The notes beneath the pieces are model-generated. The model ran no database searches. It had not been told where the DNA came from and worked only from the letters and a program-made list of their open reading frames with translations. Below are positions 12,699 through 29,053 of a stretch of 41,118 nucleotides of DNA, one piece after another (the stretch's first letter is position 1; every line of letters starts with the position of its first letter). The position numbers and the translations under genes were made by a program. The DNA comes from a virus, in IMG/VR virus record IMGVR_UViG_3300027896_000094, positions 1 through 41,118 of that record. One strand, given 5' to 3'.

Positions 12699-12700
12699 GT

Positions 12701-13899: not shown

Positions 13900-13902
13900 G
13901 TC

Positions 13903-13988: not shown

Positions 13989-14141
13989 ATGAACCCAGTC
14001 ATCGATCGCCTCAAGTCACGCAAGTCTGAGCTACTAGCTGAGTTAGAGCTCGCCAAGCTCGAAGGTAACAAGGAACTCGAGCGCCACATCAAGTTCGATC
14101 TCACCACCATCGAAATCTACATCAAAAAGGAGCAGTCATGA
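13989..14141 (+). CDS. 50-residue helical peptide, first plus-strand gene
   Basis: A short charged helical protein (MNPVIDRLKSRKSELLAEL, then ELERHIKFDL) with heptad-like leucines, possibly a small coiled coil. GGAG is 8 bases upstream of ATG 13989; an earlier in-frame ATG at 13944 has no site. Its stop overlaps the next start (ATGA). Unknown role, probably early expressed. Confidence 0.6.
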   Translation: MNPVIDRLKSRKSELLAELELAKLEGNKELERHIKFDLTTIEIYIKKEQS

Positions 14142-14272
14142 CCATCGCCAAGAGAATCCTCATCGGAGCCGGACACTTTCTGTTCTTCTGGGCAATCATG
14201 CTCGTAGGTTACACCATGATCATGCTCAAGATCAGCTTCTTGATCTTCGTGTGGAGTTGGATCTTCGGATGA
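14138..14272 (+). CDS. 44-residue two-pass membrane protein
   Basis: A very hydrophobic frame, MTIAKRILIGAGHFLFFWAI followed by LVGYTMIML, then SFLIFVWSWIFG. Two transmembrane segments are expected, with a basic N-terminus. AAGGAG lies just upstream of the ATG, and the start overlaps the previous stop by 4 bp. The role is unknown; an envelope-acting early protein is plausible. Confidence 0.65.
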   Translation: MTIAKRILIGAGHFLFFWAIMLVGYTMIMLKISFLIFVWSWIFG

Positions 14273-14365
14273 GCTAAGGAGAGCCCCATCAAGGGGTTGT
14301 CCCCAGCGCATAGAGCCTGGCAGCGCCACGCTGATCGTGGTCACACGTTCATACAGGAGGCCATC

Positions 14366-14788
14366 ATGGCCCGCATCAATCGCAAGTCCTACAGTTCAAC
14401 CATCCCGGCCGATCGGCAAGCGGGATACGCCAAGGTGATCGTCAGCAATCTCGGAGCCAGTGGCTTCGCGCACTACGTGACGGTCCGCGCCTCGTTCGAT
14501 GACGCCGGTGTCATGACCGAGCACTTCGTCGACGTGCTGGTGCACCCAGATCGCGCCATGGACATGGACGTCGAGAAGTTCGACTGCGTGACCATCAATG
14601 GCGCCGTGGAGCGTGACCCCCAGGGTGGAGAGAGCCGCCGAAAGTCCAACACTCGATACGTGTTCGCCCAGAGCGTCACGGCCATCGGCAAGCACCTCGT
14701 CAAGAAGCTGGTTGACGAGACGTCAGGTGAAACAACCCTGGAATACGCAGGCATCGGGCTCTACGCACTGGCAACCGCCGCGGAGTAG
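14366..14788 (+). CDS. Hypothetical protein, 140 residues
   Basis: A soluble protein beginning MARINRKSYSS with a beta-rich middle (AHYVTVRASFDDAG, EHFVDVLVHPD) and a C-terminal helical part. AGGAGG precedes ATG 14366 and decides the start over an upstream in-frame ATG. No known domain. A hairpin follows the stop. Confidence 0.7.
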   Translation: MARINRKSYSSTIPADRQAGYAKVIVSNLGASGFAHYVTVRASFDDAGVMTEHFVDVLVHPDRAMDMDVEKFDCVTINGAVERDPQGGESRRKSNTRYVFAQSVTAIGKHLVKKLVDETSGETTLEYAGIGLYALATAAE

Positions 14789-14798
14789 CCCCGAACAA

Positions 14799-14830
14799 GC
14801 CAGGCCTGGATCCAACCGTCCAGGTCTGGC
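14799..14830 (+). repeat. Intergenic hairpin between two small genes
   Basis: The arms gccaggcctgga and tccaggtctggc pair over 12 bp (one G-U) around an 8-base loop. No T-run follows; the next ribosome binding site starts 8 bases later. It is more likely an mRNA stabiliser or processing site than a terminator. Confidence 0.55.
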
Positions 14831-14848
14831 ACATTCAAGGAGATCGAC

Positions 14849-15064
14849 ATGACCGCAATGTTCATCATCTACACAAGTCCATCAGACGGGTTGACCAAGG
14901 CCAGGAGAGTCACTAATTTCCGCGATGCAGGCATCCTCATCGCAACACTTGAGCGTATGGGAGTGGCAGCCAAGGTGGAAGAAGAGATCAAGCTTCTCCA
15001 CAGCAACAACCTCCCGTTGATCGCCCAGACCTGGGCACCAAACTTCTCAGGCGAAGGCCTGTGA
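14849..15064 (+). CDS. Small hypothetical protein, 71 residues
   Basis: A compact alpha/beta-looking protein (FIIYTSPSDG strand, ILIATLERMGVAAKVEEEIK helix). AAGGAG lies 7 bases before the ATG. It ends this first plus-strand unit: a strong terminator follows 27 bases after its stop. Unknown function. Confidence 0.7.
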   Translation: MTAMFIIYTSPSDGLTKARRVTNFRDAGILIATLERMGVAAKVEEEIKLLHSNNLPLIAQTWAPNFSGEGL

Positions 15065-15090
15065 TCTCAAGGCTATGCAGCAGACATCAC

Positions 15091-15135
15091 AACCCGTGGA
15101 TCCCGAGCCATCAAGGGAAATCCACGGGTTTTTTT
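15091..15135 (+). terminator. Strong intrinsic terminator
   Basis: An 11-bp perfect stem (aacccgtggat at 15091-15101 with atccacgggtt at 15120-15130) with an 18-base loop runs directly into seven T residues (15129-15135). It closes the first plus-strand transcription unit. Confidence 0.85.
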
Positions 15136-15479
15136 ATCCCGTCGTATGGCCGCTCACAGTGAAATGGGCTGGACCCACTGGGATGAAGCAGGAGCAGCGA
15201 CGAACTCAACTTGGCATGATTCTCTCTTTAGAGGGCACTTTTCACTGAATCAACTCTCATCGCACAATCGATTAAAGAAGTATATATGATAGAGGTGAGA
15301 CATATCATACCAACACAAACAACAACATACATACACACACGCCCATGCGCACACACACTTACTTTCTGACTTGACGTGCTTCATATATGCCTTGAAAAAG
15401 GGGGGAAATAACTATGTGATCTATTATTAAGTTTGTTACAATGGTCGTCCGTTGCACTTAACCCTCAGAAGGAGGCCCC
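15136..15479 (+). promoter_or_regulatory. AT-rich promoter region of the second plus-strand unit
   Basis: About 345 bp without a gene, markedly AT-richer than its surroundings, between a strong terminator and a gene with a perfect ribosome binding site. It contains TATATATGATAG (about 15283), an (AC)n-rich stretch (about 15310-15360) and an extended -10 element TGTTACAAT (15434-15442). The extended -10 lacks a good -35 but would give a 30-base leader. This is the most likely site of the promoter for the long downstream operon. Confidence 0.55.
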
Positions 15480-15971
15480 ATGACCCGCAAGCAGCTCACA
15501 AAACGACAGATTCAACTGCGATCCGCCATCAAAGTCGCCATACAAAAAAGCGCGACAGGCGCCCTGCGAGATGTTTACAAACGTCTCCTCAAGAAACGCC
15601 CCAACCTGTCACAACCCTACTTCAACGACACCATCCAGAACATGCGCGACCGGGGTGACATCTACCCAGTTGGCTATGGCGTCTACCGTTGCACCGCAGC
15701 ACCGACGCAGCCGCTCCCATCCGCCGAGCGCCTCAACCCGAGGGTGAAGGCCGTGCTGCGAGCCCAGACTGCAGCCCTCCCGGAGCTCCGCAAGGCAGCT
15801 GGCATGGGACCAGATCTCCCGCTTGGCGAGGGCGCACGCCAGCTGCAGGCCATGCGCGTCGATGACGAGCTGATCGATAAGCTGCTCAAGGACCGCAAAT
15901 ACAAGCAGACCGCGATCGTGGACAGCGCGATCCTCAATCTGAAGCTGAAGGTCACCGTCGAGGTGGTCTGA
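15480..15971 (+). CDS. Probable winged-helix DNA-binding protein
   Basis: A 163-residue basic protein. Residues about 25-70 (ALRDVYKRLLKKRPN, QPYFNDTIQNMRDRGDIYPV, YGVYR) fit a winged helix, with a recognition helix followed by a beta wing of the G-x-Y-x-x-x-G type. The C-terminal region is helical with a final beta strand (LKLKVTVEVV). It is the first gene after the AT-rich promoter region and may regulate it. GGAGG precedes the ATG. Family assignment is structural intuition only. Confidence 0.5.
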   Translation: MTRKQLTKRQIQLRSAIKVAIQKSATGALRDVYKRLLKKRPNLSQPYFNDTIQNMRDRGDIYPVGYGVYRCTAAPTQPLPSAERLNPRVKAVLRAQTAALPELRKAAGMGPDLPLGEGARQLQAMRVDDELIDKLLKDRKYKQTAIVDSAILNLKLKVTVEVV

Positions 15972-16171
15972 TGCTCCCGTCCGAGACGCGCCATAAAGGC
16001 CCCAAGCACGGCGAGGACGAGATCCTCGGCATCGCACTGGTGATCATCTGGCTTACCCTGGCGGCAACCATCACCGTCATGACCGCGCATTACGTCAAGT
16101 TCCCCTGGAATCTCTACGCCATCCTCTGGCTAGCCCTCGGGCTCGTCAGTGCCCTGATGAGGGATGCATGA
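15971..16171 (+). CDS. Two-pass membrane protein, 66 residues
   Basis: A hydrophilic N-terminus is followed by two hydrophobic segments (LGIALVIIWLTLAATITVM and LYAILWLALGLVSALM) with a short loop. Its ATG overlaps the preceding stop by one base (TGATG). Unknown role; it resembles small phage membrane proteins in general and could even be holin-like, but the lysis cassette is elsewhere. Confidence 0.6.
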   Translation: MLPSETRHKGPKHGEDEILGIALVIIWLTLAATITVMTAHYVKFPWNLYAILWLALGLVSALMRDA

Positions 16172-16386
16172 GCTGGCGCACGGAAGAACTCTCTGCCATG
16201 CACCTGAACTGCTACCTCACCATCCAGCGCGGCAGGGGCAAACGATGGCACTGGCAAACCAGGGGGGATGTAAATGAATGCGGGATCACCCGCAGGTTCG
16301 GAATCGAGACCACCCTGAGCGCCGCGAAGGTGAAAGCCATAACCGCCGCAGAGGAGCTGACCAATGACGCCCGAACAACGCCATGA
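16168..16386 (+). CDS. Small basic hypothetical protein
   Basis: A 72-residue protein (MSWRTEELSAMHLNCYLTIQ start) with a Trp/Arg-rich beta-like middle (GRGKRWHWQTRGD) and a helical end. ATGA overlap with the preceding gene. The beta-strand pattern with basic residues recalls the N-terminal domain of some integrase-type proteins, but it is too short to claim. Unknown. Confidence 0.55.
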   Translation: MSWRTEELSAMHLNCYLTIQRGRGKRWHWQTRGDVNECGITRRFGIETTLSAAKVKAITAAEELTNDARTTP

Positions 16387-16480
16387 CCGCGAGACGGCCT
16401 GGGGTTTCATCTCGCTGCTGCTCTTCGCGGCAGCCATCGCGATATCCATCGCGCTCAACTTCCAGGAGGTGCACCGTTGA
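16364..16480 (+). CDS. 38-residue single-pass membrane peptide
   Basis: The frame MTPEQRHDRETAWGFISLLL is followed by FAAAIAISIALNF and a short end, one transmembrane segment. GAGGAG is about 9 bases upstream. It overlaps the preceding gene by 23 bp and its stop overlaps the next TTG start. Unknown function. Confidence 0.55.
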   Translation: MTPEQRHDRETAWGFISLLLFAAAIAISIALNFQEVHR

Positions 16481-16719
16481 GTAGAATCAAGGACTGCAAG
16501 AGGATGACCAAGGCCATCGCGTTGAGTTGTGAAGACTGGAATCGACAAGCGCAGCTGCCCAAGAAAGGTGACTACATGATCCATCCGATCACCGGCGTGG
16601 AGATCTTCCTCACGCAGCCCGCAAGGAACCACTGGTTTGACGCTGGCTCAGTCTTCCTGGCGATCTATGACGCAAGCACGCGCACTCAGATCAAACTCAA
16701 TCGAACGATGAGGTGGTGA
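16477..16719 (+). CDS. Hypothetical protein with TTG start, 80 residues
   Basis: A soluble protein of mixed charge (KAIALSCEDWNRQAQ, then PITGVEIFLTQPARN). The start is a TTG at 16477 overlapping the preceding stop (TTGA), with AGGAGG correctly spaced upstream; no better start exists. No domain recognised. Confidence 0.55.
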   Translation: MSRIKDCKRMTKAIALSCEDWNRQAQLPKKGDYMIHPITGVEIFLTQPARNHWFDAGSVFLAIYDASTRTQIKLNRTMRW

Positions 16720-16720
16720 C

Positions 16721-17008
16721 ATGGACGCGAGAGCGCTACTCACCGACATCATGTGGGATCCAATGAGCCTGAAACATGCCGATAAAGGCCTGAAGATCGG
16801 GACGATCAAGGGATTCGATACGTTCGCGGACAATATAAACCTGCATGAAAAGGTGGCCGGCTATTTCGAGAGCTTCCGCAAGCAGGTCCGACTCACACCT
16901 AAGAAAACCCATCGCTCCATCTTCTATTCCAACGTGGTTGTCGTGAGGGTTAACTTCCAGCAGTACGTGATAGATGCGCGGGACGCGGCCCTGGCCAGCG
17001 AGCTCTAA
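16721..17008 (+). CDS. Hypothetical protein, 95 residues
   Basis: A soluble protein with a FADNINLHEKVAGYFESFRKQV helical middle and a YSNVVVVRVNFQQYVIDA strand-helix end. GAGGTGG lies upstream of the ATG. Unknown function. A 66-base spacer with a cacacg/cgtgtg inverted repeat follows. Confidence 0.6.
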   Translation: MDARALLTDIMWDPMSLKHADKGLKIGTIKGFDTFADNINLHEKVAGYFESFRKQVRLTPKKTHRSIFYSNVVVVRVNFQQYVIDARDAALASEL

Positions 17009-17074
17009 ACCACACGAGGTGCCAGGCCGTGTGACCAACTTGCCCAATCCTGGCTTAGGGCTACAGGAGTTTCC

Positions 17075-17611
17075 ATGTCCACCAAGACCAACGTCCGTGC
17101 CATCCTGACCGCCATGCGTGCCGCTTCCCATAGCGTCAGCCCGCTGGACATCAAGCACGCGACCACCGTCGACCTCAGTACGATCAAGGCCGTCATCAGC
17201 AAACTGGCGAGCCTGCGGTACATCAAGGAGCACCGGGACGTCGTGGGTGTGTACTTCACCCGCAAGCCCAAGCGGGCCGAGATCGACCGCTTCATCAATC
17301 CCAACGAATCCAGCGCCGGCTTGGCTGGTTACTTCGAGCCCGTGGCGTGCCCCGTGGTTGCCGCAGCCATCGGTGCCACCGAGGCCGCTGACACCAAGCG
17401 GCTGCTCAACTACTTCCGCACGGCGCCCCATGCCGCGACAGTCGCCCCCGCGTTCAATAGCATCGTCAACAAGCTGAAGGCCGCCGGCCTCGTCAAGGAA
17501 CACCGCGACAAGCCAGGCAAGTTCTTCACCGTCAGGGCGAAGCGCGCCGTTGTCGACTCCTTCCTGGACGACAGTCTCGGACTGGCGGCTCTCTATGCCG
17601 CTCGTCAGTAG
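17075..17611 (+). CDS. Duplicated winged-helix protein, putative regulator
   Basis: A 178-residue protein made of two similar winged-helix-like halves. The first ends KLASLRYIKEHRDVVGVYFT with RKPKRAEIDRF; the second ends KLKAAGLVKEHRDKPGKFFT with RAKRAVVDSF. In each half a three-helix core precedes the shared KEHRD..G.(Y/F)FT.(R)..KRA(E/V)(I/V)D wing. This tandem arrangement suggests a monomer that binds DNA like a dimer. CAGGAG precedes the ATG. The target is unknown; regulation of this operon or of the strand-switch region is plausible. Confidence 0.65.
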   Translation: MSTKTNVRAILTAMRAASHSVSPLDIKHATTVDLSTIKAVISKLASLRYIKEHRDVVGVYFTRKPKRAEIDRFINPNESSAGLAGYFEPVACPVVAAAIGATEAADTKRLLNYFRTAPHAATVAPAFNSIVNKLKAAGLVKEHRDKPGKFFTVRAKRAVVDSFLDDSLGLAALYAARQ

Positions 17612-18797
17612 GATCCAGCATCTCAGGGATATGTTGAGGACAATGCAGCCGGGCGACGTCGTAAGAGAGCCCCTGCCGCCCACGCAGATCCCTATCGCCA
17701 ATCCCCGGGGGGCCGCAAGCTCCCCGGGTGATCAGGTGGATGCGGATCACTTCTGGCAGCACGAGCCGCCGACACACCTCGAGCGATCATACGAAGATAT
17801 CTCTGAAGAGCTGCTCTCTATGCAAGCCCACCGCATGCCTCGAGAGGTGGGCATGCGAAGACTGCGTGAATATGCAGATCGACTCTCAATGGAGTGCAAC
17901 CCAATCGTTCAGGTTGATCCAAACCGGTTATCGCCCGGCGAAGATGCTCTGCTGTCACCAGGCGCTAGGATCAGAATACGTGCAGCCATGAACAGTGAGA
18001 CAGAGCGGCTTCAATTAGCCCACAGAAATTTAATAGAGAATGCTCGCCAGATGGGCATGCCAAGAATGCAGCCCATGGAGAGCTTCGAGAGTGCGTACTC
18101 ACGATACGGATACCCGCCATCTCGGCACGTCCAGATTCCGGAGGAGGAAATGCCCAATGACCCAGAAACTGGTCCTGGCACTGATCATCGCAAACATGCT
18201 AAGCGGATTCTGGGTGTGGCGCCTGCTGTATCCAAAGAAACACTGGAAAGGCTTGCCATCCCGCAAGAGATATTCTCTTCTCTGGTGGCGACGATAGACG
18301 GCGTGGATCCCACGAACCAGCAAGAACAGAGCGTGGACGATAACTTCACGGCGATCTTCCACCGTGATCTGATCAGGGATATGGGCAAGGACAACGTCAT
18401 TAGTGATGCGACCATCGGTTACGGCCCTGGCCGCCTAGCCTGGGCGAAGATCATAAAAAGAACAAAGGAACAGAAAGGTCCGTTCATCTCCAGGTATCGC
18501 ACCAATTTCAATTTCGCACAGAACGACGATCAATGGAACGGGCTGCTGCCAGTAATCGCGGCGAAACTTCGCGGAGTAGACTATAGAAACTACGTTGAGG
18601 ACCTCTATAACCGACATGGTTGCACAGCCAGTGGCGGCGCATGGCTGGAAGCGGTGGAGCGACCCAACATCCTCTTCACCAGTGTTAGGTCTGCCTTGCG
18701 CGAGCTCATACTCGAGAGCCTCGAGGAGATCTCAAAGGACTACGTGAGACGGCTTGAGAAAGCCAAGCCAGGGAAGGACATACAGCTATGGGCATAA
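17595..18797 (+). CDS. Hypothetical protein, 400 residues
   Basis: A large soluble protein with no recognised domain. The N-terminal half is Pro/Arg/Glu-rich and probably extended (NPRGAASSPGD, PRMQPMESFESAYSRYGYPP). The C-terminal half is helical and more compact (FHRDLIRDMGKDNVISDATI; VRSALRELILESLEEISKDY). The start is uncertain: ATG 17595 overlaps the previous gene by 17 bp, and ATG 17631 is an alternative; neither has a strong ribosome binding site. It opens the block of unknown genes leading to the amidoligase-amidotransferase pair, so it may be a substrate or partner of that pair (inference). Confidence 0.6.
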   Translation: MPLVSRIQHLRDMLRTMQPGDVVREPLPPTQIPIANPRGAASSPGDQVDADHFWQHEPPTHLERSYEDISEELLSMQAHRMPREVGMRRLREYADRLSMECNPIVQVDPNRLSPGEDALLSPGARIRIRAAMNSETERLQLAHRNLIENARQMGMPRMQPMESFESAYSRYGYPPSRHVQIPEEEMPNDPETGPGTDHRKHAKRILGVAPAVSKETLERLAIPQEIFSSLVATIDGVDPTNQQEQSVDDNFTAIFHRDLIRDMGKDNVISDATIGYGPGRLAWAKIIKRTKEQKGPFISRYRTNFNFAQNDDQWNGLLPVIAAKLRGVDYRNYVEDLYNRHGCTASGGAWLEAVERPNILFTSVRSALRELILESLEEISKDYVRRLEKAKPGKDIQLWA

Positions 18798-19273
18798 TGA
18801 GCGAACTGATGGACACCATCTCTGAAGTGATCGACATGAAGTCTGCCTATCGAATCATCCGGCGACCGTATGACGAGGAATTTGCGCGCGCGCACAGCGT
18901 CACGCTGCTCGACATTACAGACAAGCTCTACATCCCGTGCATCTTCTGCGGGACAGACATCGTCGGCAAGATTCTTGTCGGCAAGGTCTATACGAATCAG
19001 CCTGTCTTCTGTGATCTGAACTGTCGATCCAAGCACGCGCTCGTCCGGCTCTCCAAGTTCACCGAGGAGACCAACATCCGGGAAGCGGCGAAGAAGCTAG
19101 TGGCGATGTGCCTTACGGTCGACATCATCGTCAAGGAAACCGACGTCAAGAAGCGCACCACGCCCCTAGTTGTTCGTAAGCTCCTGGCCGAGCACAATCG
19201 CCTGGCCGAGCTCACGCTCGATGTCCTGAAACAAATCCTGAAGGAGGTAACGCATGCCAATAGGGACACTTGA
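18788..19273 (+). CDS. Zinc-ribbon-containing hypothetical protein
   Basis: A 161-residue protein with CIFCG at about 51-55 and a second pair CDLNC at about 76-80, a four-Cys zinc ribbon, followed by a long helical C-terminus with heptad-like pattern. It overlaps the preceding gene by 10 bp and the next by 20 bp. The zinc module echoes those in the amidoligase- and amidotransferase-like proteins downstream. Unknown function. Confidence 0.6.
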   Translation: MGIMSELMDTISEVIDMKSAYRIIRRPYDEEFARAHSVTLLDITDKLYIPCIFCGTDIVGKILVGKVYTNQPVFCDLNCRSKHALVRLSKFTEETNIREAAKKLVAMCLTVDIIVKETDVKKRTTPLVVRKLLAEHNRLAELTLDVLKQILKEVTHANRDT

Positions 19274-19889
19274 ACCTCTGTATCGATACCTCCAATTACA
19301 CAATGGCGCCGACGCAATCTCAGCTGTGATCAACGACATGGAAGCCCTCGCCAGAGGGGGTTTCATCAAGAGTCTCGGAGAGGGTCTCCATGAAACCATT
19401 CAAACCACAGCTTCGGAGATCGAGATCAACGAAACCCTATCGCAGCTCCTGGGCAGGGATATGCCGACATTCTACACCGCCAGCTACCAGGCGCTCGACA
19501 GCAAGATGTTCATCAGCATCTCCAGGGTTGAGCCGGCCGTGAGCCGGACAATCCTCGCGCTCTGTATCAACGAGGACGACAGCGTCACCACGTTCTATCT
19601 GGATGGCGCCAACATGATCGACATGGGGCAGAAGTCCCCCGAGCTCTACAGCTCAACATCTGCCGTCATCAAGACCGCGGATGGCGCCCTCAAGAATGGT
19701 TTTGTGAGATCGTTCACGTCCGTTCGCCAGCGCAGTGAAAGCGAGGTCTATATCAAGTGCGACTTCCGCCTTAGCAGGACCGCCCCGTTCTACATCGCCA
19801 TCCGGGACATCTACGGACGTCAGGATGCGCATGTTGGAGCAACTGCGAAGACGGTCTTCGACGAGCTGGAGGCCACATGCAGCAGATGA
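19254..19889 (+). CDS. Hypothetical protein, 211 residues
   Basis: A soluble alpha/beta protein beginning MPIGTLEPLYRYLQLHNGAD. A beta-rich middle (TILALCINEDDS, TTFYLDGANM) and C-terminal strands (SEVYIKCDFRLSRTAPFYIA) suggest a folded domain. GGAGG lies 6 bases before the ATG, inside the preceding gene. No family recognised. It is the third gene of the block that ends in the amidoligase pair. Confidence 0.65.
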   Translation: MPIGTLEPLYRYLQLHNGADAISAVINDMEALARGGFIKSLGEGLHETIQTTASEIEINETLSQLLGRDMPTFYTASYQALDSKMFISISRVEPAVSRTILALCINEDDSVTTFYLDGANMIDMGQKSPELYSSTSAVIKTADGALKNGFVRSFTSVRQRSESEVYIKCDFRLSRTAPFYIAIRDIYGRQDAHVGATAKTVFDELEATCSR

Positions 19890-20086
19890 TCAACCTCCTG
19901 GCAAACATCGCGGCCAACGCTGAGAATGTGGATGCCTGTGTGGTTGCCGCAGTTATGAAGCCTACTGAAGAGAACCCTGATCCCGTAGTGGAAGTTCTCA
20001 CTGTGGGCGACAGCGCCATCAGCATGTTTGGAATCTCCGAGTTCATCAAGATGGAGATCTACAAGCAGCTGGGGAGGCGCTCATGA
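19877..20086 (+). CDS. Small hypothetical protein, 69 residues
   Basis: A mostly helical protein with one strand pair (ACVVAAVMKP, VVEVLTVGDS). It overlaps the preceding gene by 13 bp, and its stop overlaps the amidoligase-like start. GCTGGAGG lies upstream. Close coupling on both sides suggests that it works with its neighbours; the role is unknown. Confidence 0.55.
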   Translation: MQQMINLLANIAANAENVDACVVAAVMKPTEENPDPVVEVLTVGDSAISMFGISEFIKMEIYKQLGRRS

Positions 20087-21717
20087 TGTGCGCGGCGTGT
20101 GGCGTAGAGGATTCAGTAGCTAGGATGAAACGCTATTGGGATCATAGGGATGGAAGCATTTTTTATGTATGCCTCGCATGCGATAACAACCTGGATCTGT
20201 GGGAGACTGACGACCTCAACCTCAGAGCCCTGCAAAGCCGTGAGACCCCGAGGGTGGAAGCCGTAAACGGCGAGGATATGGACGAAGACCGCAGTACCTT
20301 CGACATCTTCAATGGCGACGGACCGGAATGTAGGTCTGTTTATCATTGCGGTTGCTGCGATGAGACATGCTTTGGCGACCACGTGCGCGTCGTAGATCTG
20401 GTTTATCCCGTGTGTCTTCGGTGTGTGAGAGAGTCCTACCACCACAGCGCGCTGCTTGACCAGTATTTCATCACCCCAGCGGCACGGGCGGCCAGAGAGG
20501 CGGAGCAGCGCGCCTGGCAGAGAGCACCAGTGGTGCCCGCCGCGCCACCCAGCACGAGCGAATCCCCCAGTGGCTACACGGCCACGAAGGGGAGAGCTTC
20601 CGCCCGATTCCTGGACTATCCATACGTGGGGATCGAGTTCGAGCACGCGCCCGTTCAAAACAAAGCCATGGCGTGCAACTCCGGGTCACTGTTCCGCTGG
20701 ATCGCCAACGGCCTGCAGTCACCCGAGAAATCATGGGACCACTTCTTCATGTGCCACAGCGATGGCAGTATTGAAAGCCGAGCCGAGTATAGCTCCTCAG
20801 AGATCGTGTCTACGCCGACCTCTGGAGATCTTCTCGACGCGGTGATCAACCGATTCTACGAGCCTTTCGCAACCAAGATATTTACCCCCGGCCCAGAGAA
20901 TCGAAAGTGTGGGTTTCACATGCATGTCGAGAGCCGTTACCTCATGTGGATGAAGGCAGGGCATGAGGACAGGGATGCGAAGTCAAGGTCGGTCGCCACG
21001 GAGGCACTGGGGTTGATCTATGTTATCTGTCGAGAGTTTATATCCTCTAGCAGGAGAGAGAATCACTTCTGCCGGACGAAGCCCGCGGTGAGGAGCAAGT
21101 CAACTAGCCTCGCCGGGAGCACAGCCATGATCAACGTCTTCGGACACAGTGATTACCCCGCTATCGCTGTCCGCACGATGGGCACGCTGGAATATCGGCT
21201 GTGGCCATCGAGCAACAGCATCCGTAACACCAGGGCTCGCGCAGAGCTCAGCCAAAAGCTGACGGCGCGTTTTGATAGCTGTGTGATGCACGCGAAAACC
21301 CCAGCACCCGAACTACACCCAGAGTGTCTCGAGGGCCTGCGAGCCATCGCTAAACTCTGTGTCGGTGGCGCGCGCCTCGGGATTCCCGATGCGCTGGGTG
21401 AGCTGCTCGGCCTGTCCGACACGACCGTCAGAGATCTGAAGAGCATCCTTGAGCGATACAATCCTTTCACCCACGGGGCGACTCACTTCCAGTTCACGAA
21501 GGAGCAGCTCTCTCACCTCAAAAGCGAATCTACCTTGCACAGCACGGCGATCAAGATCCCAGGCAAGATGCCTATCTCCGAACTTGGCGACACCACCGCG
21601 CAATCGGATCTTATGGAGCCATGGCTGACCTTCGGCGAGTGCGTCAAGTGCTATCCAGCCGCAACCGAAGGCGCGATGCCAGACCTGGTCGCAAGCCTGG
21701 CCACAGGAGGTGATTAA
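20083..21717 (+). CDS. Amidoligase-like (COOH-NH2 ligase) protein with N-terminal zinc modules
   Basis: A 544-residue protein. Residues 1-40 and 83-115 carry Cys pairs (CAAC, CLAC, HCGCCDETC, CLRC) that should form two zinc sites. The core (about 178-400) has the amidoligase signature in order: YVGIEFEHAP (183-187), HSDGSIESRAE (225-235), SSEIVSTPTS (238-246), CGFHMHVES (276-284) and a final GTLEYRLWPSSNS (367-379). This matches the PF12224-type amidoligase family, distant relatives of glutamine synthetase/GCS that use ATP to join a carboxylate to an amine. The invariant Glu, Asp, His and Arg positions appear retained, so it may be active. The next gene is a class II glutamine amidotransferase, joined as TAATG. 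The substrate is unknown. GGGGAGG precedes the ATG. Confidence 0.78.
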   Translation: MMCAACGVEDSVARMKRYWDHRDGSIFYVCLACDNNLDLWETDDLNLRALQSRETPRVEAVNGEDMDEDRSTFDIFNGDGPECRSVYHCGCCDETCFGDHVRVVDLVYPVCLRCVRESYHHSALLDQYFITPAARAAREAEQRAWQRAPVVPAAPPSTSESPSGYTATKGRASARFLDYPYVGIEFEHAPVQNKAMACNSGSLFRWIANGLQSPEKSWDHFFMCHSDGSIESRAEYSSSEIVSTPTSGDLLDAVINRFYEPFATKIFTPGPENRKCGFHMHVESRYLMWMKAGHEDRDAKSRSVATEALGLIYVICREFISSSRRENHFCRTKPAVRSKSTSLAGSTAMINVFGHSDYPAIAVRTMGTLEYRLWPSSNSIRNTRARAELSQKLTARFDSCVMHAKTPAPELHPECLEGLRAIAKLCVGGARLGIPDALGELLGLSDTTVRDLKSILERYNPFTHGATHFQFTKEQLSHLKSESTLHSTAIKIPGKMPISELGDTTAQSDLMEPWLTFGECVKCYPAATEGAMPDLVASLATGGD

Positions 21718-23279
21718 TGTGCGGACTGTCGGGGATCGTCATCACCCAGCCCAAGCTCATTCCCATGGAGCTCGTGAAGACCATTTTCTCACTGCTGATG
21801 GAAGAGAATGATGACCGAGGCGGCCATTCGTGGGGCGCCTGGGGATCCAGGAAGGCTCCGATTCGGGGCCTGGGAAAGTACAGCACGAACAGAGCCCCGC
21901 TGCATGCGTGGTTGAAAGACTTCCGCTTCATGGAGGGAGGGCCGACGTTTCTGTTTGGCCACACCCGCTTTGGAACCCACGGTGGCAGGACGATCGAGAA
22001 CTCCCATCCATTCGAGGAGGGCAACATCACCCTGGCCCACAATGGGGTCGTCGAGGTCGAAGGTTACACTACCGAGGATCACGCCGTGGATTCAGCCAGG
22101 ATCGCCATCGCTCTCACGCAGAAGGGCTATGTGGGCGGGATGGCGTGCGTCATGGGCATGTGCTCGTTGCTCCTGAGCGTGGACGGCCAGCCTCTGGTCT
22201 ATCGCCACGACCAGGTCCTCAACTACGCGCAGTTCCCATGGGGGTCCGCCATCTCCAGCACGTTCTGTGACCTGGAGCTGACTGTGGTCAAGCGCCTGGG
22301 ACTCGAGCCAGTAGGGGGCGTCCAGAACGTCCCAGAGAACACCTTCTGCCAACCTGGCTTCGGCCTCATCAATGTGTCGGCGCCGGGCAAGGAGCGTCCG
22401 AAGTATGTCCCGCCTGAGCCCAAGAAGAGGACCTGGTATGGCGGCCTTGCGGTTGATGAAGACGACGATCGATTCTCGGGGAACAGACACGACATGCGAT
22501 ACGACGAGGACAACGGGGGCATGTGGAAGCCTGGCCATGTCTGGAGCATTAAGCGTGGCCGCTATGTGCCGCAAGAAGAAGCAGATAGCGCCACTATTCT
22601 CAACGGATGGAACACTCGCAGCTGGAACAGAGAGAAGCAGTGCTGGGAGTATCCCGAAATCGTGGCGGGAACCCAGACCGCACTCGGCCTGGTCACCATC
22701 GACAAGACGGCCGCGTCTGGTGGCAGCCAGGAATTTAGTGGCAAGTCCGATCTCCCTAAGGCCAAGGAAATCAAGTCAGTGCGAGCCATTCGGGCGGAGA
22801 TCAAGGCTAAGGTTAAGGCTGAAGCCAAGGCAAGGAAGGCTCGGATCGCATCAGCGAAAGCCGAGGCTGAGTCCATCATCAAGAGGTCCCAGGACAGGCT
22901 TGCGGCAGCTCAAAGGGCTGCAGCGCTCGACACCGAGGACGACGAGCCGATGTTCGAATGCACAGGCTGCGGCTACCCGTGCGCGATTGAAGACATATCC
23001 GTCTGCGTCACTAACTGGTCATCAGGCCTGGAGGTGCCGCTGTGTCTCGATTGCATCACAGATGAGATCGTCAAACAGGGCGAGATCGTGGTTCTCAGGC
23101 CGTTCAATGCGCCGACAGTGACCGCAATGGATGACTTCGGCAATGCCCTTGACGTTCTCGAGGCAGAGATCGTCGAGGCGGATCCAGATATCCCGCCCTT
23201 GGACACGTTGACCGACAAGGCTAAGGAGGAGCTGGAGGAGTACATCACGAAAAACTATGGGGAGCCACGCCATGTATAG
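21717..23279 (+). CDS. Class II glutamine amidotransferase with coiled coil and zinc ribbon
   Basis: A 520-residue protein beginning MCGLSGIV: after Met removal Cys2 is the N-terminal nucleophile of class II (Ntn) glutaminases. Supporting motifs are GHTRFGTHGG (81-90), NSHPFE (95-100) and LAHNGVV (106-112), the glutamine-binding set seen in GlmS, PurF and GATase_6 enzymes. No synthetase, PRTase or isomerase domain follows. Instead the middle (about 330-400) is a Lys/Ala/Glu-rich helical stretch and the C-terminus carries a CTGCG/CLDC zinc ribbon (about 413-445). It should release ammonia from glutamine for a partner, and the adjacent amidoligase-like protein is the obvious candidate. AGGAGG precedes the start. 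It is too divergent in its second half to be a housekeeping amidotransferase. Confidence 0.85.
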   Translation: MCGLSGIVITQPKLIPMELVKTIFSLLMEENDDRGGHSWGAWGSRKAPIRGLGKYSTNRAPLHAWLKDFRFMEGGPTFLFGHTRFGTHGGRTIENSHPFEEGNITLAHNGVVEVEGYTTEDHAVDSARIAIALTQKGYVGGMACVMGMCSLLLSVDGQPLVYRHDQVLNYAQFPWGSAISSTFCDLELTVVKRLGLEPVGGVQNVPENTFCQPGFGLINVSAPGKERPKYVPPEPKKRTWYGGLAVDEDDDRFSGNRHDMRYDEDNGGMWKPGHVWSIKRGRYVPQEEADSATILNGWNTRSWNREKQCWEYPEIVAGTQTALGLVTIDKTAASGGSQEFSGKSDLPKAKEIKSVRAIRAEIKAKVKAEAKARKARIASAKAEAESIIKRSQDRLAAAQRAAALDTEDDEPMFECTGCGYPCAIEDISVCVTNWSSGLEVPLCLDCITDEIVKQGEIVVLRPFNAPTVTAMDDFGNALDVLEAEIVEADPDIPPLDTLTDKAKEELEEYITKNYGEPRHV

Positions 23280-24042
23280 GTTTCACCAGGTTCTTAGCGC
23301 GACACACAGTCCGCACAAGGCCCTCGCAGAATCCACCCCCTCGGCAGCGATGCTGGGGGGGATCTGGATGGAGGCTAACGTCGCCATCAAGATGGGGTTC
23401 GAGCCATGGCTTCCCGACGGGCTCGGGATGGATATGGAGGAGATCGCAAGGTATGATCTGCAGGCCGACCGCGTGGTCGAATGCCTGGACGGTATCCCTG
23501 GGCTGGAGTATCAGCCTGTACTGTCCTGGCCGTGGGGCAGCGACGAAATTGTGTCCGTGCGGCAAGCCGAGGGTCACCCCGACTTCCTGGCCTCTGTTGA
23601 GCACGAGATCATCGACCTCAAGACCACGGAGTATCCGACCGAGGAGCTGCTTAACAGACTTCTCCATTCAATACAGATGTGTTCATATATTGCGGCTTAT
23701 GAGTGTGAGCACGGAGTCATGCCATCGCTCCAGATCATTCTCGCCAGTCGCTTGGTCGAGCCCGAGCCCGTGTTGTTCAACAAGAACGGGACGGTCAGCC
23801 TGTCCGGCCAGAACGCGGACCACGCCTCGCTGCTTGAGGCGGTGTCGCTTATGGGCGACAAGGCCGACGAACGACACTGGGCGATGGTGTACAAAGCGCC
23901 AGTGTGGTGCCCCATCATGGTGGGGACGCTGGACGTGGACGAATGCCGCGAGCTGGCGAGGATCGGGACGATCTTTCTCGACGCCGGCCTTGCCATCTTG
24001 AACACAGGGCTTGCGGAGTCAATCTATCGGCCCTATACTTGA
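23272..24042 (+). CDS. PD-(D/E)XK exonuclease, RecB/Cas4-like
   Basis: A 256-residue nuclease-like protein. The core motif reads GHPDFLASVEHEIIDLKTTE: the first Asp, then Asp-x-Lys on the following strand. The helix LLNRLLHSIQMCSYIAAYE carries the Gln typical of RecB-family nucleases. No Cys cluster for an Fe-S site is evident, unlike Cas4 or AddB. Followed by a Sak4-like ATPase and an SSB-like protein, it probably supplies the 5'-3' resection step of a phage recombination system. Start at 23272 because GGGGAG is 7 bases upstream; it overlaps the amidotransferase stop by 8 bp. Confidence 0.75.
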   Translation: MYRFHQVLSATHSPHKALAESTPSAAMLGGIWMEANVAIKMGFEPWLPDGLGMDMEEIARYDLQADRVVECLDGIPGLEYQPVLSWPWGSDEIVSVRQAEGHPDFLASVEHEIIDLKTTEYPTEELLNRLLHSIQMCSYIAAYECEHGVMPSLQIILASRLVEPEPVLFNKNGTVSLSGQNADHASLLEAVSLMGDKADERHWAMVYKAPVWCPIMVGTLDVDECRELARIGTIFLDAGLAILNTGLAESIYRPYT

Positions 24043-24084
24043 TGCACGGGGCAATGAGGCCCAAGCAAACACAGGAGGTAAACA

Positions 24085-24810
24085 TTGAGAGTAGTTGATT
24101 TCAAGACCCCGATCGCCAAGAAGGCCAGGGCTCACGTCCTGTTGCACGGCGAGAGTGGCGCAGGCAAGACAACCTTTGCGGTCACGGGCGGCCGCCCCGT
24201 GGTGGTGTGCTTGGAGGCCAAGGCGGAAAACACGATCCTGTCGATCAATCCGGACGCGATGTTCATCGTGCCCGAGTCGATCGACGATCTTCGTGCCATT
24301 GCCAAGGCGCTTCGAGACCCAGCCAGCTACGCGAAGGAATTCCCCGGCATCGACAAGGCCACTCGCCTTGTGGTTGATTCGTGGACAGAGATGACGGCCC
24401 TGGTCGGTGGCTGGATTGGTGGCGGGGCTCAGATCAGCCTTCCCCAGTACGGCGATCTTCAGCGGGTTGTCTTCGGGCTGCTCGGCATGGCGCAAGCTGG
24501 CCCGCTACCCTCCATCGTCATCGCTCGCTCTGAGGTTCAGGAGCAGGGTGGTGGGGTGCTGCGGGTGAGCAAGATCGTGCCGGCTAGTCTTGGGAAGTCC
24601 GTCGCCCAGCTCCCAGGCAAGCTCGTGGCCACACTTCAGGCCGTGAGCGTCAATGACAAGGGTGAAACCTACACCATCGAGTCCGGACCCAGCGACTCGG
24701 CCAGAAGGTCAGGTCTGCCCTGGCTTAAGCCATCATGGGATCCAGCGACAGACGGGAATGCTGACAAGATGTTGGCGGTGATCGAAGCAGGACCCAAGAG
24801 AGGGGGCTGA
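24085..24810 (+). CDS. Sak4-like RecA-fold ATPase
   Basis: A 241-residue ATPase with Walker A HGESGAGKT (21-29) and a later acidic strand LVVDSWTEM that serves as Walker B. The family (AAA_24; phage nucleotide-binding protein) includes Sak4, which promotes single-strand annealing together with an SSB. Translation starts at TTG 24085, eight bases after AGGAGG; no ATG fits. Partner genes for nuclease and SSB flank it, which strengthens the recombination role. Confidence 0.8.
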   Translation: MRVVDFKTPIAKKARAHVLLHGESGAGKTTFAVTGGRPVVVCLEAKAENTILSINPDAMFIVPESIDDLRAIAKALRDPASYAKEFPGIDKATRLVVDSWTEMTALVGGWIGGGAQISLPQYGDLQRVVFGLLGMAQAGPLPSIVIARSEVQEQGGGVLRVSKIVPASLGKSVAQLPGKLVATLQAVSVNDKGETYTIESGPSDSARRSGLPWLKPSWDPATDGNADKMLAVIEAGPKRGG

Positions 24811-24811
24811 C

Positions 24812-25039
24812 ATGGCTAGATTCTGGAGATTTCTTGGCCCAGGCAATTACCGAGTCGAGGTAGCCACCCCCGGCGACGAGCCCATCCAAGCCCACATGAA
24901 ACCAGCGCCAACCGTGGGACGTGGGACGTTTATGGAAATCGTTGATGAGAACGGGCTTAGTGTCTATGTAGACACTGATTCGTACGACCATGTCGTTCAA
25001 GTGCCATACGTCAGCAAGCAAGATCGCCACCAGCGATAA
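24812..25039 (+). CDS. Small hypothetical protein, 75 residues
   Basis: A beta-rich soluble protein (MARFWRFLGPGNYRVEVATP, then GLSVYVDTDSYDHVVQVPY). It starts one base after the Sak4-like stop, behind a G-rich site, and sits inside the recombination module between the ATPase and the SSB-like gene. Unknown; possibly a small accessory of that module. Confidence 0.6.
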   Translation: MARFWRFLGPGNYRVEVATPGDEPIQAHMKPAPTVGRGTFMEIVDENGLSVYVDTDSYDHVVQVPYVSKQDRHQR

Positions 25040-25054
25040 CCCAAGGAGAAAAGC

Positions 25055-25597
25055 ATGGCAGACATCAAGTTAGGACTCACGAAGAAGGCCATCGAAGATG
25101 CGAGGGAAACCTACGAAGGTCCTCGAACGCCATTCCCTGCGACCAGGGTGGGGTATACCAAATACACCGCCCTCGTAACCGATCTCGCGATCAAGGAAGG
25201 CACCGGCAACTACCAGGGCCAGGCATGGTTGTGGATCCAGGTCAGCAATGGGATCTACCAGGAATCGATCTTGATCAACCTGGACCCCAGCAACGTGGCG
25301 CCATCGGCCAAGCCGGAGGATGTCGAGAAGATCGTCCAGCGCAATCTGGACACGCTGCTTCGGGTCGTGAAGGTGCTGGACATCGCCAACGTGGCGGGAG
25401 ATGGCATCGACACCGGCAAGTTCGCAGCCGCCAAGGGCACCATGGTCACCTTCGGTGTCCGGCTGGGCGAGATGAACCTGAAGACCGGCTACCCCCGCAT
25501 CTATTCTTCTTTTTATGGGAAAGCAGAGGCCCTGATACCCGTCGACGCTGTGCCAAGTGTTGCAATTACTGAAGATAACTCCGATATACCCTTCTAA
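25055..25597 (+). CDS. SSB-like single-stranded DNA-binding protein
   Basis: A 180-residue protein with a beta-rich middle (YTALVTDLAI, QAWLWIQVSNG) like an OB-fold and an acidic tail ending DNSDIPF, which is close to the classical SSB C-terminal tip (DDDIPF) used to recruit partners. Its position after a Sak4-like ATPase fits phage Sak4/SSB pairs. The protein also resembles DUF669-type SSBs. AAGGAG precedes the ATG. A long hairpin follows the stop. Confidence 0.7.
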   Translation: MADIKLGLTKKAIEDARETYEGPRTPFPATRVGYTKYTALVTDLAIKEGTGNYQGQAWLWIQVSNGIYQESILINLDPSNVAPSAKPEDVEKIVQRNLDTLLRVVKVLDIANVAGDGIDTGKFAAAKGTMVTFGVRLGEMNLKTGYPRIYSSFYGKAEALIPVDAVPSVAITEDNSDIPF

Positions 25598-25632
25598 AAC
25601 TTGGTACGGTCCTCACCAACATTACCGTTCTA

Positions 25633-25661
25633 GCGTCCGCTCCTATTCCGGGGGCGGACGC
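25633..25661 (+). repeat. Strong hairpin after the recombination module
   Basis: gcgtccgc (25633-25640) and gcggacgc (25654-25661) pair perfectly, with three further pairs inside (one G-U). No T-run follows, so this may be a 3' mRNA stabiliser or a Rho-assisted stop rather than a simple terminator. It marks the boundary to a run of small cassette genes. Confidence 0.6.
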
Positions 25662-25711
25662 GAAGTTCAAGCCCCTGCTCGATGCTTTGAAACCCATCCT
25701 GGGAGCCAGCC

Positions 25712-25999
25712 ATGAATGACCTTGAAACTATCCGAGCCACGCTTATGCACCACGATCCAACAATTATTGCCGCCGTGGATCGTCTAGACGCCTTTGTGAC
25801 CGGATGTGTTGCCCGTGGTGGCGAGTTAGTTGCCCGCGTCACCGAACTGGAGGCGGCGTTGAAACCCTTTGCTCGGCACCGCATCTGCGAGGACTCCTGG
25901 TATTCCTGTCCGATGTCTGGAGATGGGTGCTCCAACTATGACATGAAGGGCTGCATCTGCGGCGCGGAGCAAGTCATCGAAGTCCTCAACCCGAAGTGA
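25712..25999 (+). CDS. Small Cys-rich hypothetical protein
   Basis: A 95-residue protein: the N-terminal 55 residues form a helical, coiled-coil-like segment (VARVTELEAALKPF), and the C-terminal part holds five Cys (CEDSWYSC, GDGCSNYD, GCICG), enough for a metal or disulfide site. GGAG lies 7 bases before the ATG. A coiled-coil plus Cys cluster layout recurs in a nearby gene (27429). Unknown function. Confidence 0.6.
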   Translation: MNDLETIRATLMHHDPTIIAAVDRLDAFVTGCVARGGELVARVTELEAALKPFARHRICEDSWYSCPMSGDGCSNYDMKGCICGAEQVIEVLNPK

Positions 26000-26024
26000 A
26001 GATGTCCAAGATAAGGAACCAACC

Positions 26025-26411
26025 ATGAAGATCAAACGAACTGAACGAGGCTGGGCTGGTCACTTCATCGGTGCCCCGTCCTGCCTGTTTCGCCGGAACA
26101 CCCTGCTGGAGTGCGGGGGCATCAAGATCGTGGTTTCAACCGTGGGCCTGATGCAGCACTACAACAAGGACAAGGGCGGCTTCATGGAGATTGGACTGGA
26201 CCGCCATTACGAAACGATGGCTTTCCATTCCGATCCCGATGACCACCGCTACTCCGATGCCAATGTGCAACGGCAAGTCTATTTCAACTCCCCCTGGTCC
26301 ATCAGCGAAGCCGATGCCGATGACCACGCTAACTTCATGCACGAAACCGTAGTCCAGGAGATTGCGGATCGTCTTAAATCTGGTGAAACCTTCCCCACTG
26401 ACCGCGATTGA
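26025..26411 (+). CDS. Hypothetical phage protein (MKIKRTxRGWxGHFI type)
   Basis: A 128-residue protein starting MKIKRTERGWAGHFIGA, then CLFRRNTLLECGG. Proteins of this pattern occur in many phages of enterobacteria and related hosts from memory and have no assigned function. The first half is beta-rich with basic residues; the C-terminal part is acidic (EADADDHANF). AAGGAA precedes the ATG. Confidence 0.65.
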   Translation: MKIKRTERGWAGHFIGAPSCLFRRNTLLECGGIKIVVSTVGLMQHYNKDKGGFMEIGLDRHYETMAFHSDPDDHRYSDANVQRQVYFNSPWSISEADADDHANFMHETVVQEIADRLKSGETFPTDRD

Positions 26412-26429
26412 TCTTGTCCAGGAGGCGCG

Positions 26430-26597
26430 ATGCCCCGAAAGCATAAGAAGCCAGCCCCGCCGCCCATGGATCTCCAGGCGTTCCACAAGCGAATCCTGCT
26501 CACCGCCTACCGCTGCCTGTGGGACATGGAGCCTGGATTCAATCCTCACGAACCCACTCAACCCGGCTTCCGCGCCTTTGCCTACTTCGGCGCGTGA
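26430..26597 (+). CDS. 55-residue hypothetical peptide
   Basis: A frame MPRKHKKPAPPPMDLQAFHK, then a helical RILLTAYRCLWDMEPG and a Pro/Phe-rich end. GGAGG is 5 bases upstream. The leader TTGTCCAGGAG before it recurs before the following genes, so it belongs to a cassette-like series. Confidence 0.6.
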   Translation: MPRKHKKPAPPPMDLQAFHKRILLTAYRCLWDMEPGFNPHEPTQPGFRAFAYFGA

Positions 26598-27757: not shown

Positions 27758-29053
27758 ATGTTATCTCTAGCGATGATCATCAAGAACGAAGAGCACAATC
27801 TCCATCGCTGCCTGAGCTCCGTGCGGAGCCTGGTGGACGAGATGGTGATCGTGGACACTGGATCAACCGACGACAGCATGGGCATGGCCAGGTCGCTGGA
27901 CGCGCATGTGCATCAGTTCGAATGGTGCGACGACTATTCCGCGGCCAGGAACTTCGCACTTAGCAAGTGCGTCGGGGACTGGATTCTGATCCTCGATGGT
28001 GACGAGGCGCTGTATCCGGAAGACCACGAGTTGATCCGAGCCTGCATGGCGGACGATCGTTATGACATCTACACCCACCCGTTGCGCCATTTCTACCACG
28101 ACGGCAGGGCTGTTGCGCTCGATGAGCCGGTGGTCCGGTGCACCAGTGGCGAGTACCCCTACTGCTCCGACGCCACCAACCGGCGCCTCGTAAGGAACCT
28201 GCCCGGCCTGCACTGGACCGGGCGCCTCCACGAGATGATCTCCCTGCGCGCTGGCGACCACGACCTGCGCATGGGCGAGGCCAAATTCTTTGTCTACCAC
28301 TACGGCCGGCTCGACCGGGAGAACGAGGAGCGCAAGCGTGGGTTCTACCTGGACATCGCCATGAAGGAATACAGGGAGGACCCCAAGAATCCGAAGGCGC
28401 TGTTCAACTTCCTGACGCAGGCCAGGGCTGCCGAAGCCTGGGACAAGATGCTCGAGGCCTCGGAGATTTACCTGGGGCTGGGCGGCCTGGTCCCAGCGAT
28501 CGTGGCCACCATGGTCGGCGAGGCCATGCACCACGCGGGGCGCTACGACGCGGCCCTGCAATGCTTCAGGCTCGTGCTGCTCAAGACGCCAGGCAATGTG
28601 TTCGCCCTTAACCGTGTGGCTATTACGCTTATCAAGCTGGGGAGGATCAACGAGGCACGTCGGTTCCTGTATGAATCCATCATCAAGGAGCCGGCCTTCA
28701 CCTGTTCGCACTTGGTGTGGGCGGAGATGGAGGACGGTATCGGCGACAGGCCGATGGCGATCGAGATCTTGAAGCAGGGCATCACGGATAACCCAACTGA
28801 CACCAAGCTGGCCGAAGCGCTGGCTAAATTAGAGGAGGGAGAAAGACATGGGCGGATACAAGGAGCTCTACGAAGTGGAGCACACGAAGCTGATTGCACT
28901 GAGACGGGATCTCCTGGCCCTTCAGCACACGGAGACCAAGCTGATCGAGTTCATCAAGCTGGCATCGGAAGTTCTGAAGTCGGAGCTGATGGAACGGGAT
29001 CTCCAGTGGGCGACCAGGGATGCACTAGACAAGATAGAGAGCTTCCTGCATGA
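27758..29053 (+). CDS. Family 2 (GT-A) glycosyltransferase with TPR-like C-terminus
   Basis: A 431-codon frame. The GT2 domain starts MLSLAMIIKNEEHNLHRCL with VDTGSTDDS (32-40) for nucleotide-sugar binding and LDGDEAL (79-85) as the DxD-type metal site. Residues about 215-350 are helical repeats (GLVPAIVATMVGEAMHHAG; PGNVFALNRVAITLIKLG) like TPRs. This bacterial-type glycosyltransferase could modify host surface glycans or a phage protein. The last ~65 codons overlap a complete small gene (28848) in another frame and look low-complexity, so the functional protein may end near residue 365. GGAGG lies upstream of the ATG. Confidence 0.8.
   Translation: MLSLAMIIKNEEHNLHRCLSSVRSLVDEMVIVDTGSTDDSMGMARSLDAHVHQFEWCDDYSAARNFALSKCVGDWILILDGDEALYPEDHELIRACMADDRYDIYTHPLRHFYHDGRAVALDEPVVRCTSGEYPYCSDATNRRLVRNLPGLHWTGRLHEMISLRAGDHDLRMGEAKFFVYHYGRLDRENEERKRGFYLDIAMKEYREDPKNPKALFNFLTQARAAEAWDKMLEASEIYLGLGGLVPAIVATMVGEAMHHAGRYDAALQCFRLVLLKTPGNVFALNRVAITLIKLGRINEARRFLYESIIKEPAFTCSHLVWAEMEDGIGDRPMAIEILKQGITDNPTDTKLAEALAKLEEGERHGRIQGALRSGAHEADCTETGSPGPSAHGDQADRVHQAGIGSSEVGADGTGSPVGDQGCTRQDRELPA

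Follow-up and report, generated by a model that had tools for sequence, protein, structure and literature searches.

What reaction do the products of two overlapping phage genes catalyse, and on what substrate? The genes lie in IMG/VR virus sequence IMGVR_UViG_3300027896_000094, a 41,118-base phage record whose whole length we refer to as the window. Genes for a terminase, a portal-like protein and a virion structural protein make a tailed phage the very likely source; the record has no direct terminal repeat in the range of 10-200 bases. A sequence-only reading of this DNA had assigned the first gene to the amidoligase-like enzymes and the second to the class II glutamine amidotransferases (GATs), with ammonia from glutamine feeding the ligation of a carboxylate. 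The observation is confirmed. Its interpretation is supported in part, the enzyme classes and this scheme being backed by profile matches, predicted folds, residue conservation and the pairing of the genes. We conclude that the window pair is a very diverged example of the phage amidoligase/GAT pair, to which it is homologous, and that the two proteins are probably translated together and amidate a substrate with ammonia from glutamine. This assignment is supported by the arrangement of the genes, both folds, the majority of the active-site residues and the pairing of the two families.

Identification of the ligase and the glutaminase

Both reading frames are full length and joined as the sequence-only reading had it, at the positions listed in Table 1. 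The letters TAATG at 21715-21719 are common to the 3' end of the ligase gene and the start of the glutaminase gene, and the Shine-Dalgarno-like AGGAGGTGA at 21705-21713 lies directly 5' of the glutaminase start. The overlap and this site speak for joint translation of the pair, which is probable.

The motifs GIEFE, DGS, EIVS, HMH and LEYR, to which the sequence-only reading had drawn attention, are indeed present in the ligase. When compared by hhalign with a profile of 12 known phage amidoligases, built without the window protein, the ligase matches with 92.5% probability over 174 columns (E value 4.9e-7). In a repeat with controls it scores 59.3, as against at most 24.1 for 64 other open reading frames (ORFs) of the window (those of at least 150 amino acids that could be scored), while 50 shuffled versions of the ligase protein reach no more than 22.3. 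The likeness of the ligase to phage amidoligases exceeds chance. A plain hidden Markov model from the same 12 proteins gives an E value of only 0.0015, and profile-profile and fold comparison are the only approaches that worked well for this protein. PHROGs and NCBIfam gave no ligase match, and a search with PF12224 (Amidoligase_2) found nothing in the window record, whereas 8 other records matched, some only with neighbouring stretches summed. In tblastn searches of 50,697 phage records, neither the full ligase nor the full glutaminase has a match at 1e-5; the ligase domain alone reaches one record at E 10, and the GAT domain alone reaches 49 records at E values up to 1, the best (3e-4) being uncultured phage ctUh1700. 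Single-protein scans of IMG/VR with the ligase, the glutaminase, the ctUh1700 ligase and two neighbours of the pair revealed no relative.

The AlphaFold model of the ligase was computed from an alignment of the window protein with 32 IMG/VR amidoligases. Within residues 178-460, most ten-residue blocks have an average predicted local distance difference test score (pLDDT) of 61-93; confidence is lower around 201-220, 331-350 and 401-410. The best structural match is 1tt4, a predicted glutathione synthase (Z score 11.0, 219 residues aligned, root-mean-square deviation (rmsd) 4.2), followed by YbdK (1r8g; Z 10.8, 226 aligned, rmsd 4.8) and by Dop, glutamine synthetases and PafA (Z 9.6-10.6); GmaS and a plant glutamate-cysteine ligase are also matched, and all of the 50 fold matches listed belong to the glutamine-synthetase superfamily by title. 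A viral library yields 13 matches at E values up to 0.001. Five of these carry names, namely four amidoligases and a Mycobacterium phage Tesla protein annotated as a glutamine amidotransferase. Of 11 residues invariant across 32 other phage amidoligases, 10 are found in the ligase and one, at position 313, is Tyr in place of Glu (alignment A5, which holds 32 of the 38 amidoligases from the IMG/VR cassette loci described below, near-duplicates being excluded). The profile comparison and the model point to a diverged ligase of predicted glutamine-synthetase fold that belongs to the phage amidoligase superfamily.

The second protein starts with MCG, which places a Cys at the N-terminal nucleophile position, and it contains the FGTHGG, NSHPF and AHNG motifs that the sequence-only reading had noted. 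It matches PHROG 4736 (5.9e-15), a profile of known GATs (2.4e-20) and, in hhalign, 11 known phage GATs (98.7% probability, E value 3.4e-16). Ten-residue blocks of residues 1-210 of its model have mean pLDDT values of 71-93. Residues 2-226 superpose on the GlmS glutaminase domain 1xff (Z 22.3, 206 aligned, rmsd 3.2), the next matches being human GFAT-1, PurF and EgtC; by type, Z is 21.2-22.3 for GlmS, 18.4-21.4 for PurF and 18.4-18.6 for EgtC. Residues R84, T87, H88, H97, N109 and G110 align with GlmS R73, T76, H77, H86, N98 and G99, which we take to have glutamine-pocket and catalytic-region roles. In addition, D125 is conserved in all 32 other phage GATs of an alignment (A6) that includes 32 of the 39 locus glutaminases, near-duplicates, one split GAT (locus L053) and one GAT running off its locus (L046) being excluded; Cys2 is counted in 27 of these 32 rows, with 5 gaps, because several of them begin at a later start codon. 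Sequence and model thus identify a class II glutaminase with a predicted N-terminal nucleophile (Ntn) fold, in which the N-terminal Cys and the glutamine pocket are retained. In fold, N-terminal Cys and pocket residues it resembles the glutaminase domains of GlmS and PurF. It differs from these enzymes in that no synthase domain is found on it, as the sequence-only reading had anticipated, and that it has a C-terminal Cys ribbon instead.

Table 1. Features of the amidoligase/glutaminase locus in the window
Feature	Position	Strand	Basis
Amidoligase-like (glutamine-synthetase-fold) ligase gene, 544 aa	20083..21717	+	ORF; hhalign against 12 phage amidoligases with controls; fold matches
Ligase N-terminal CxxC...CxxC module (C3, C6, C30, C33), likely zinc-binding	20089..20181	+	sequence; low model confidence
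Second ligase Cys-rich module (C89, C91/C92, C96, C111, C114), likely zinc-binding	20347..20424	+	sequence
Ligase catalytic domain, residues 178-460, GIEFE/DGS/EIVS/HMH/LEYR	20614..21462	+	alignment columns; fold matches cover residues 145-468
Shine-Dalgarno-like AGGAGGTGA and TAATG stop/start overlap	21705..21719	+	sequence
Class II glutamine amidotransferase gene, 520 aa	21717..23279	+	ORF; PHROG 4736; hhalign
Ntn glutaminase domain, residues 1-226, nucleophile Cys2	21717..22394	+	pLDDT; Z 22.3 to 1xff
Glutaminase C-terminal zinc ribbon, C415/C418/C443/C446	22959..23054	+	conservation

Relation to the phage amidoligase cassette

The arrangement of the two genes had not been recognised in the sequence-only reading, and a novel amidoligase/glutaminase pairing can be rejected. 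Later papers reportedly credit the prediction of a phage cassette containing both enzymes to Iyer et al. 2009. The pairing is published for LUZ24, phiEco32, RIO-1 and OM43 phages (PMC3890496, PMC3517423, PMC5498523, PMC10580990): an amidoligase and a glutamine amidotransferase are described in UFV-P2 and LUZ24-like phages (PMC3890496) and in phage tf (PMC3517423); a cassette located in the replication region of PSA-HP1 and other phages is proposed to modify peptidoglycan against superinfection (PMC5498523); and PF12224 and GATase genes are reported from OM43 phages MEP401 and MEP402 and from more than 30 metagenomic viral genomes (PMC10580990), in an account whose available portion does not mention zinc.

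The pairing is also present in 38 of 39 IMG/VR loci, which were kept on the basis of a GAT motif and tblastn similarity to the window GAT and are therefore similarity-picked, including near-copies of LUZ24- and phiEco32-like phages. The amidoligase lies within 5 kb of the GAT in these 38 loci; in 34 of them the two share a strand and the amidoligase is the upstream gene. The cassette of the phiEco32/LUZ24 type consists of a COOH-NH2 ligase, Amidoligase_2, class II GAT, ATP-grasp enzyme and gamma-glutamyl cyclotransferase; a COOH-NH2 ligase is found in 39 of the 39 loci, ATP-grasp in 37 (using our own profile) and a cyclotransferase in 17. Two irregular loci were seen in this set. L025 (5001-9346) has two GAT-like ORFs on either side of one amidoligase, and in the LUZ24-like L053 (5001-6099) the GAT is split into two ORFs of 279 and 134 amino acids, its kin L054 and L058 having a single 510-residue ORF.

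The window pair resembles this cassette in its adjacent amidoligase and class II GAT, mostly found in that order (with the TAATG overlap in the window), in the C-terminal zinc ribbon of the GAT and in its location among replication genes. It differs in that the other partners are undetected. The COOH-NH2 ligase (PF14395) has no match in the 41 kb window record, which is possibly incomplete, and neither does gamma-glutamyl cyclotransferase (PF06094, GGACT), although LUZ24 and phiEco32 controls match in both cases; our own profiles for these two enzymes likewise find nothing in the window. For ATP-grasp, Pfam RimK is not a fair test because it misses LUZ24, but our own profile, which detects 37 of the 39 loci, has no match in the window. 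The cyclotransferase is a weak cassette criterion because only 17 of the 39 loci have one.

The second difference concerns the Cys-rich modules. CxxC pairs start at ligase residues 3, 30, 89, 111 and 520 and at glutaminase residues 415 and 443, and the extra modules that the sequence-only reading had placed on both proteins are thus present; they probably bind zinc. Those on the glutaminase are not extra, however, since each of the four ribbon Cys is kept in 30 or 31 of the 32 other phage GATs, and the notion of a zinc ribbon unique to the window GAT was rejected. None of the 38 cassette ligases has a Cys-rich module of the window type because 36 of them are without any CxxC and 2 have a single one. 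Given that the GAT ribbon is usual in the family, what sets the window apart is only the ligase modules and the cassette partners that go undetected.

A two-gene form with a Cys-rich ligase

The layout of the window, in which a Cys-rich module precedes the ligase domain, a GAT adjoins and no COOH-NH2 ligase is detected, is shared with Marvin, MEP402 and three metagenomic phage records. This zinc-ligase/glutaminase layout is thus already present in named public records such as Marvin. Among the literature matches listed, no paper addresses it by title or abstract opening. Our two-gene set, gathered by similarity searches and not at random, comprises the window, ctUh1700, Marvin, MEP402, ctgrD200, MT839723 (a faecal scaffold, 6.6 kb fragment) and Salgado. 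No COOH-NH2 ligase match is seen in any of these seven records, although MT839723 covers no more than 6.6 kb, and Cys-rich ligase modules occur in all except Salgado, which has a ligase without CxxC and a cyclotransferase.

In mycobacteriophage Marvin, the adjacent genes gp105 and gp106 encode a Cys-rich N-terminus with an amidoligase and then a class II GAT with a C-terminal CxxC, in a complete genome without a COOH-NH2 ligase or cyclotransferase match. The Marvin and window ligases differ in lacking significant BLASTP similarity (E value 0.32), and 79 nt separate the Marvin genes where the window has TAATG. Marvin gp105 scores 19.5 bits with the Pfam amidoligase profile (E value 0.001), under the 22-bit cut-off, and 22 bits with in-frame neighbours. 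It is matched by 19 Mycobacterium phage records, duplicates included, and 18 of the 19 label it (L003:36627-37988) 'glutamine amidotransferase', the GAT being gp106. Marvin gp105 and its kin are therefore likely misannotated, their domain appearing amidoligase-like behind a Cys-rich N-terminus. In Methylophilales phage MEP402, also a complete genome without COOH-NH2 ligase or cyclotransferase matches, the ligase and GAT genes (gp06 and gp07) overlap and CxxC pairs at 275 and 292 precede the ligase domain; it differs from the window in a long unrelated N-terminal region and a GAT without CxxC. Uncultured phage ctUh1700 (MW202637) has a Cys-rich N-terminus with an amidoligase, a GAT 33% identical to that of the window over 142 residues, no cassette partners found in its complete genome and a distant portal match (20% over 196 residues). 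A 43-residue gene separates its pair, however, and its GAT is without a CxxC pair.

In a tree of GATs, the row nearest to the window is ctUh1700 (87/85, not starred, long branches), and the main group, with 45 cassette rows, does not include the rows from two-gene pairs, a placement that is unsure given the long branches. The window GAT has the longest end branch (3.63). No fused ligase-GAT ORF was found in the loci examined, and in two loci from a scan of genome contigs a GAT-like ORF is present but the DNA examined has no amidoligase match. A single close relative was identified through its terminase (L004, 83% identical); it is a 24.6 kb record with no ligase match and, in the 21.4 kb of it examined, no GAT-profile match, and the genes that it has in common with the window map under about 15.3 kb of the window.

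Possible function of the pair

Several results weigh against the reading as a glutamine-fed amidation pair. The ligase has no Pfam match at E values up to 1 and stays below the curated cut-off of PF12224 (22 bits), the glutaminase reaches 22.2 bits with PF13522 (GATase_6; E value 1.5e-4) where the cut-off is 27, and both proteins, if judged by the cut-offs of Pfam, thus fall short of formal family membership; deeper profile comparisons and fold comparisons are nevertheless positive. The amidoligase profile finds no glutamine-synthetase-fold match among PDB chain sequences. Mean pLDDT is 60 for the ligase model and 66 for the glutaminase model, and the models are not independent of their alignments because these contain known family rows. 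Structure modelling, proposed in the sequence-only reading, returns both expected folds. The exception among the invariant ligase residues is Y313, which is Glu in 32 of 32 other amidoligases. A362 is Asn in 31 of 32 others, and further departures are S238 where 31 others have Gly, K275 where 30 have Arg and A189 where 30 have Glu. The glutaminase departs at four positions kept in 30-31 of 32 others, namely R163 (Asn), V167 (Pro), T182 (Ser) and F183 (Glu). The pairing is not invariable either, given that one of the 39 loci (L039) has a GAT without a detected amidoligase and that three phages (AR1086-1, My-WqHQDG and one of Porphyromonas) carry an amidoligase near which no GAT was detected. 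These three, in whose available DNA no GAT was detected, were left out of the two-gene set; the ORF adjoining the AR1086-1 ligase is not a GAT.

For the amidation pair that we consider probable, the class II glutaminase would free ammonia from glutamine by means of its N-terminal Cys (Cys2, after removal of Met), the glutamine-synthetase-fold ligase would spend ATP on turning a carboxylate into an acyl phosphate, and attack of ammonia on the acyl phosphate would give the carboxamide. The Cys-rich modules probably link ligase and glutaminase to each other or serve to dock the substrate. ATP use, ammonia transfer, complex formation, zinc, the substrate and the benefit to the phage are our inferences. 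Because partners that build a peptide substrate are undetected in the 41 kb record, the simplest reading is that a carboxylate which the infected cell already contains would be amidated once. A tentative leading guess is a carboxylate of the peptidoglycan stem peptide, and protein carboxylates would come next. Peptidoglycan leads because a cell-wall change is the published suggestion and because MurT-GatD, likewise a two-gene ligase and glutaminase amidating a carboxylate, is a precedent by functional analogy. In that system the glutaminase, GatD, belongs to class I and MurT is one of the Mur ligases; they are not homologous to the phage pair. MurT-GatD peptidoglycan amidation is the topic of PMC3267633 and PMC5871853.

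Other readings of the same genes are less probable. The ligase might join an amino acid or amine to a carboxylate, with the Ntn enzyme acting as a gamma-glutamyl amidohydrolase, like EgtC, that trims the product. Such an activity would be in keeping with the appearance of EgtC among the close glutaminase folds and of YbdK and glutamate-cysteine ligase, relatives that use amines, among those of the ligase, and the phage glutamine amidotransferase is counted among peptidoglycan degradation genes in PMC5498523. We nevertheless think this unlikely: GlmS-type folds score higher than EgtC (PurF-type values overlap it), the glutamine-binding residues are retained, and the enzymes expected to make gamma-glutamyl intermediates are undetected, the cyclotransferase and COOH-NH2 ligase by Pfam and our own profiles and ATP-grasp by our own profile. 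Loss of ligase activity, with the genes persisting as a regulatory or structural remnant, might account for Y313 and A362 in place of a near-universal Glu and Asn, for the strong divergence and for the long GAT branch. Decay or repurposing is very improbable in view of the full-length frames, the ten other invariant residues that the ligase keeps and the pocket residues of the glutaminase that align with GlmS, and E318, five residues from Y313, could replace the missing Glu.

The zinc modules might instead anchor the pair to nucleic acid or to a protein complex of the host. Amidation of a side-chain or base carboxylate there would serve the takeover of host transcription or replication, or the protection of phage DNA. 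The location of the pair upstream of a Sak4-like recombination gene and the distribution of ligase zinc-like modules (6 of 7 two-gene pairs, compared to none of 38 cassette ligases) speak for targeting of this kind. Zinc modules could equally serve dimerisation, however, the two-gene set is small and similarity-gathered, and among the window ORFs scanned the sole hints of nucleotide or group modification are the weak phrog_85 match at 8003-10171 and Methyltransf_24 at 6671-7417, so that we give this possibility little weight. A broader proposal, which we also hold to be rather unlikely, is that the zinc-module amidoligase and glutaminase form a self-contained phage system for amidation that differs from the multi-ligase peptide cassette, and that the zinc modules bring the pair to a specific macromolecule, the carboxylates of which it amidates in host takeover; it would recur in phages that infect mycobacteria and Methylophilales and in phages from gut and spring communities, the window being the most diverged example seen.

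Annotations of the phage amidoligase/glutaminase pair go back to 2012 or earlier (PMC3517423), and its substrates are only suggested in the papers as far as these are available. The window itself mostly extends the sequence range of a known kind, and its interest lies mainly in the zinc-module two-gene form as a route to the substrate. With two genes and one amidation, this stripped version is the easiest to test, and it could show whether the widespread cassette truly modifies the cell wall, as papers suggest, or another target.

Gene context and other observations

Downstream of the pair lie a Sak4-like gene (PHROG 124, 2.3e-10) and a weak PD-(D/E)XK match under the cut-off (E value 0.029). 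These neighbours agree with the replication-region location of the cassette in the description of cassette phages (PMC5498523), and they would fit expression of the pair in an early or replication phase. Promoter-like sites are not enriched in 12500-26500 (4, compared to a shuffle mean of 5.8), and this stretch provides no promoter evidence. Upstream of the pair, a 161-residue ORF (18788-19273) has an FCS/MYM-like zinc motif match under the cut-off.

Elsewhere in the window, a 248-residue ORF at 6671-7417 (+) matches Methyltransf_24 (32.2 bits). A 722-residue ORF at 8003-10171 (-) has a weak match to calcineurin-like metallophosphoesterases (Pfam, 22.0 bits), a match to the DNA repair exonuclease PHROG 7339 and a weak one to thymidylate synthase (phrog_85, E value 5.1e-4). 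Finally, a 431-residue ORF at 27758-29053 has a Glycosyltransferase family 2 domain ahead of TPR repeats and bears a distant likeness to the SunS peptide S-glycosyltransferases.

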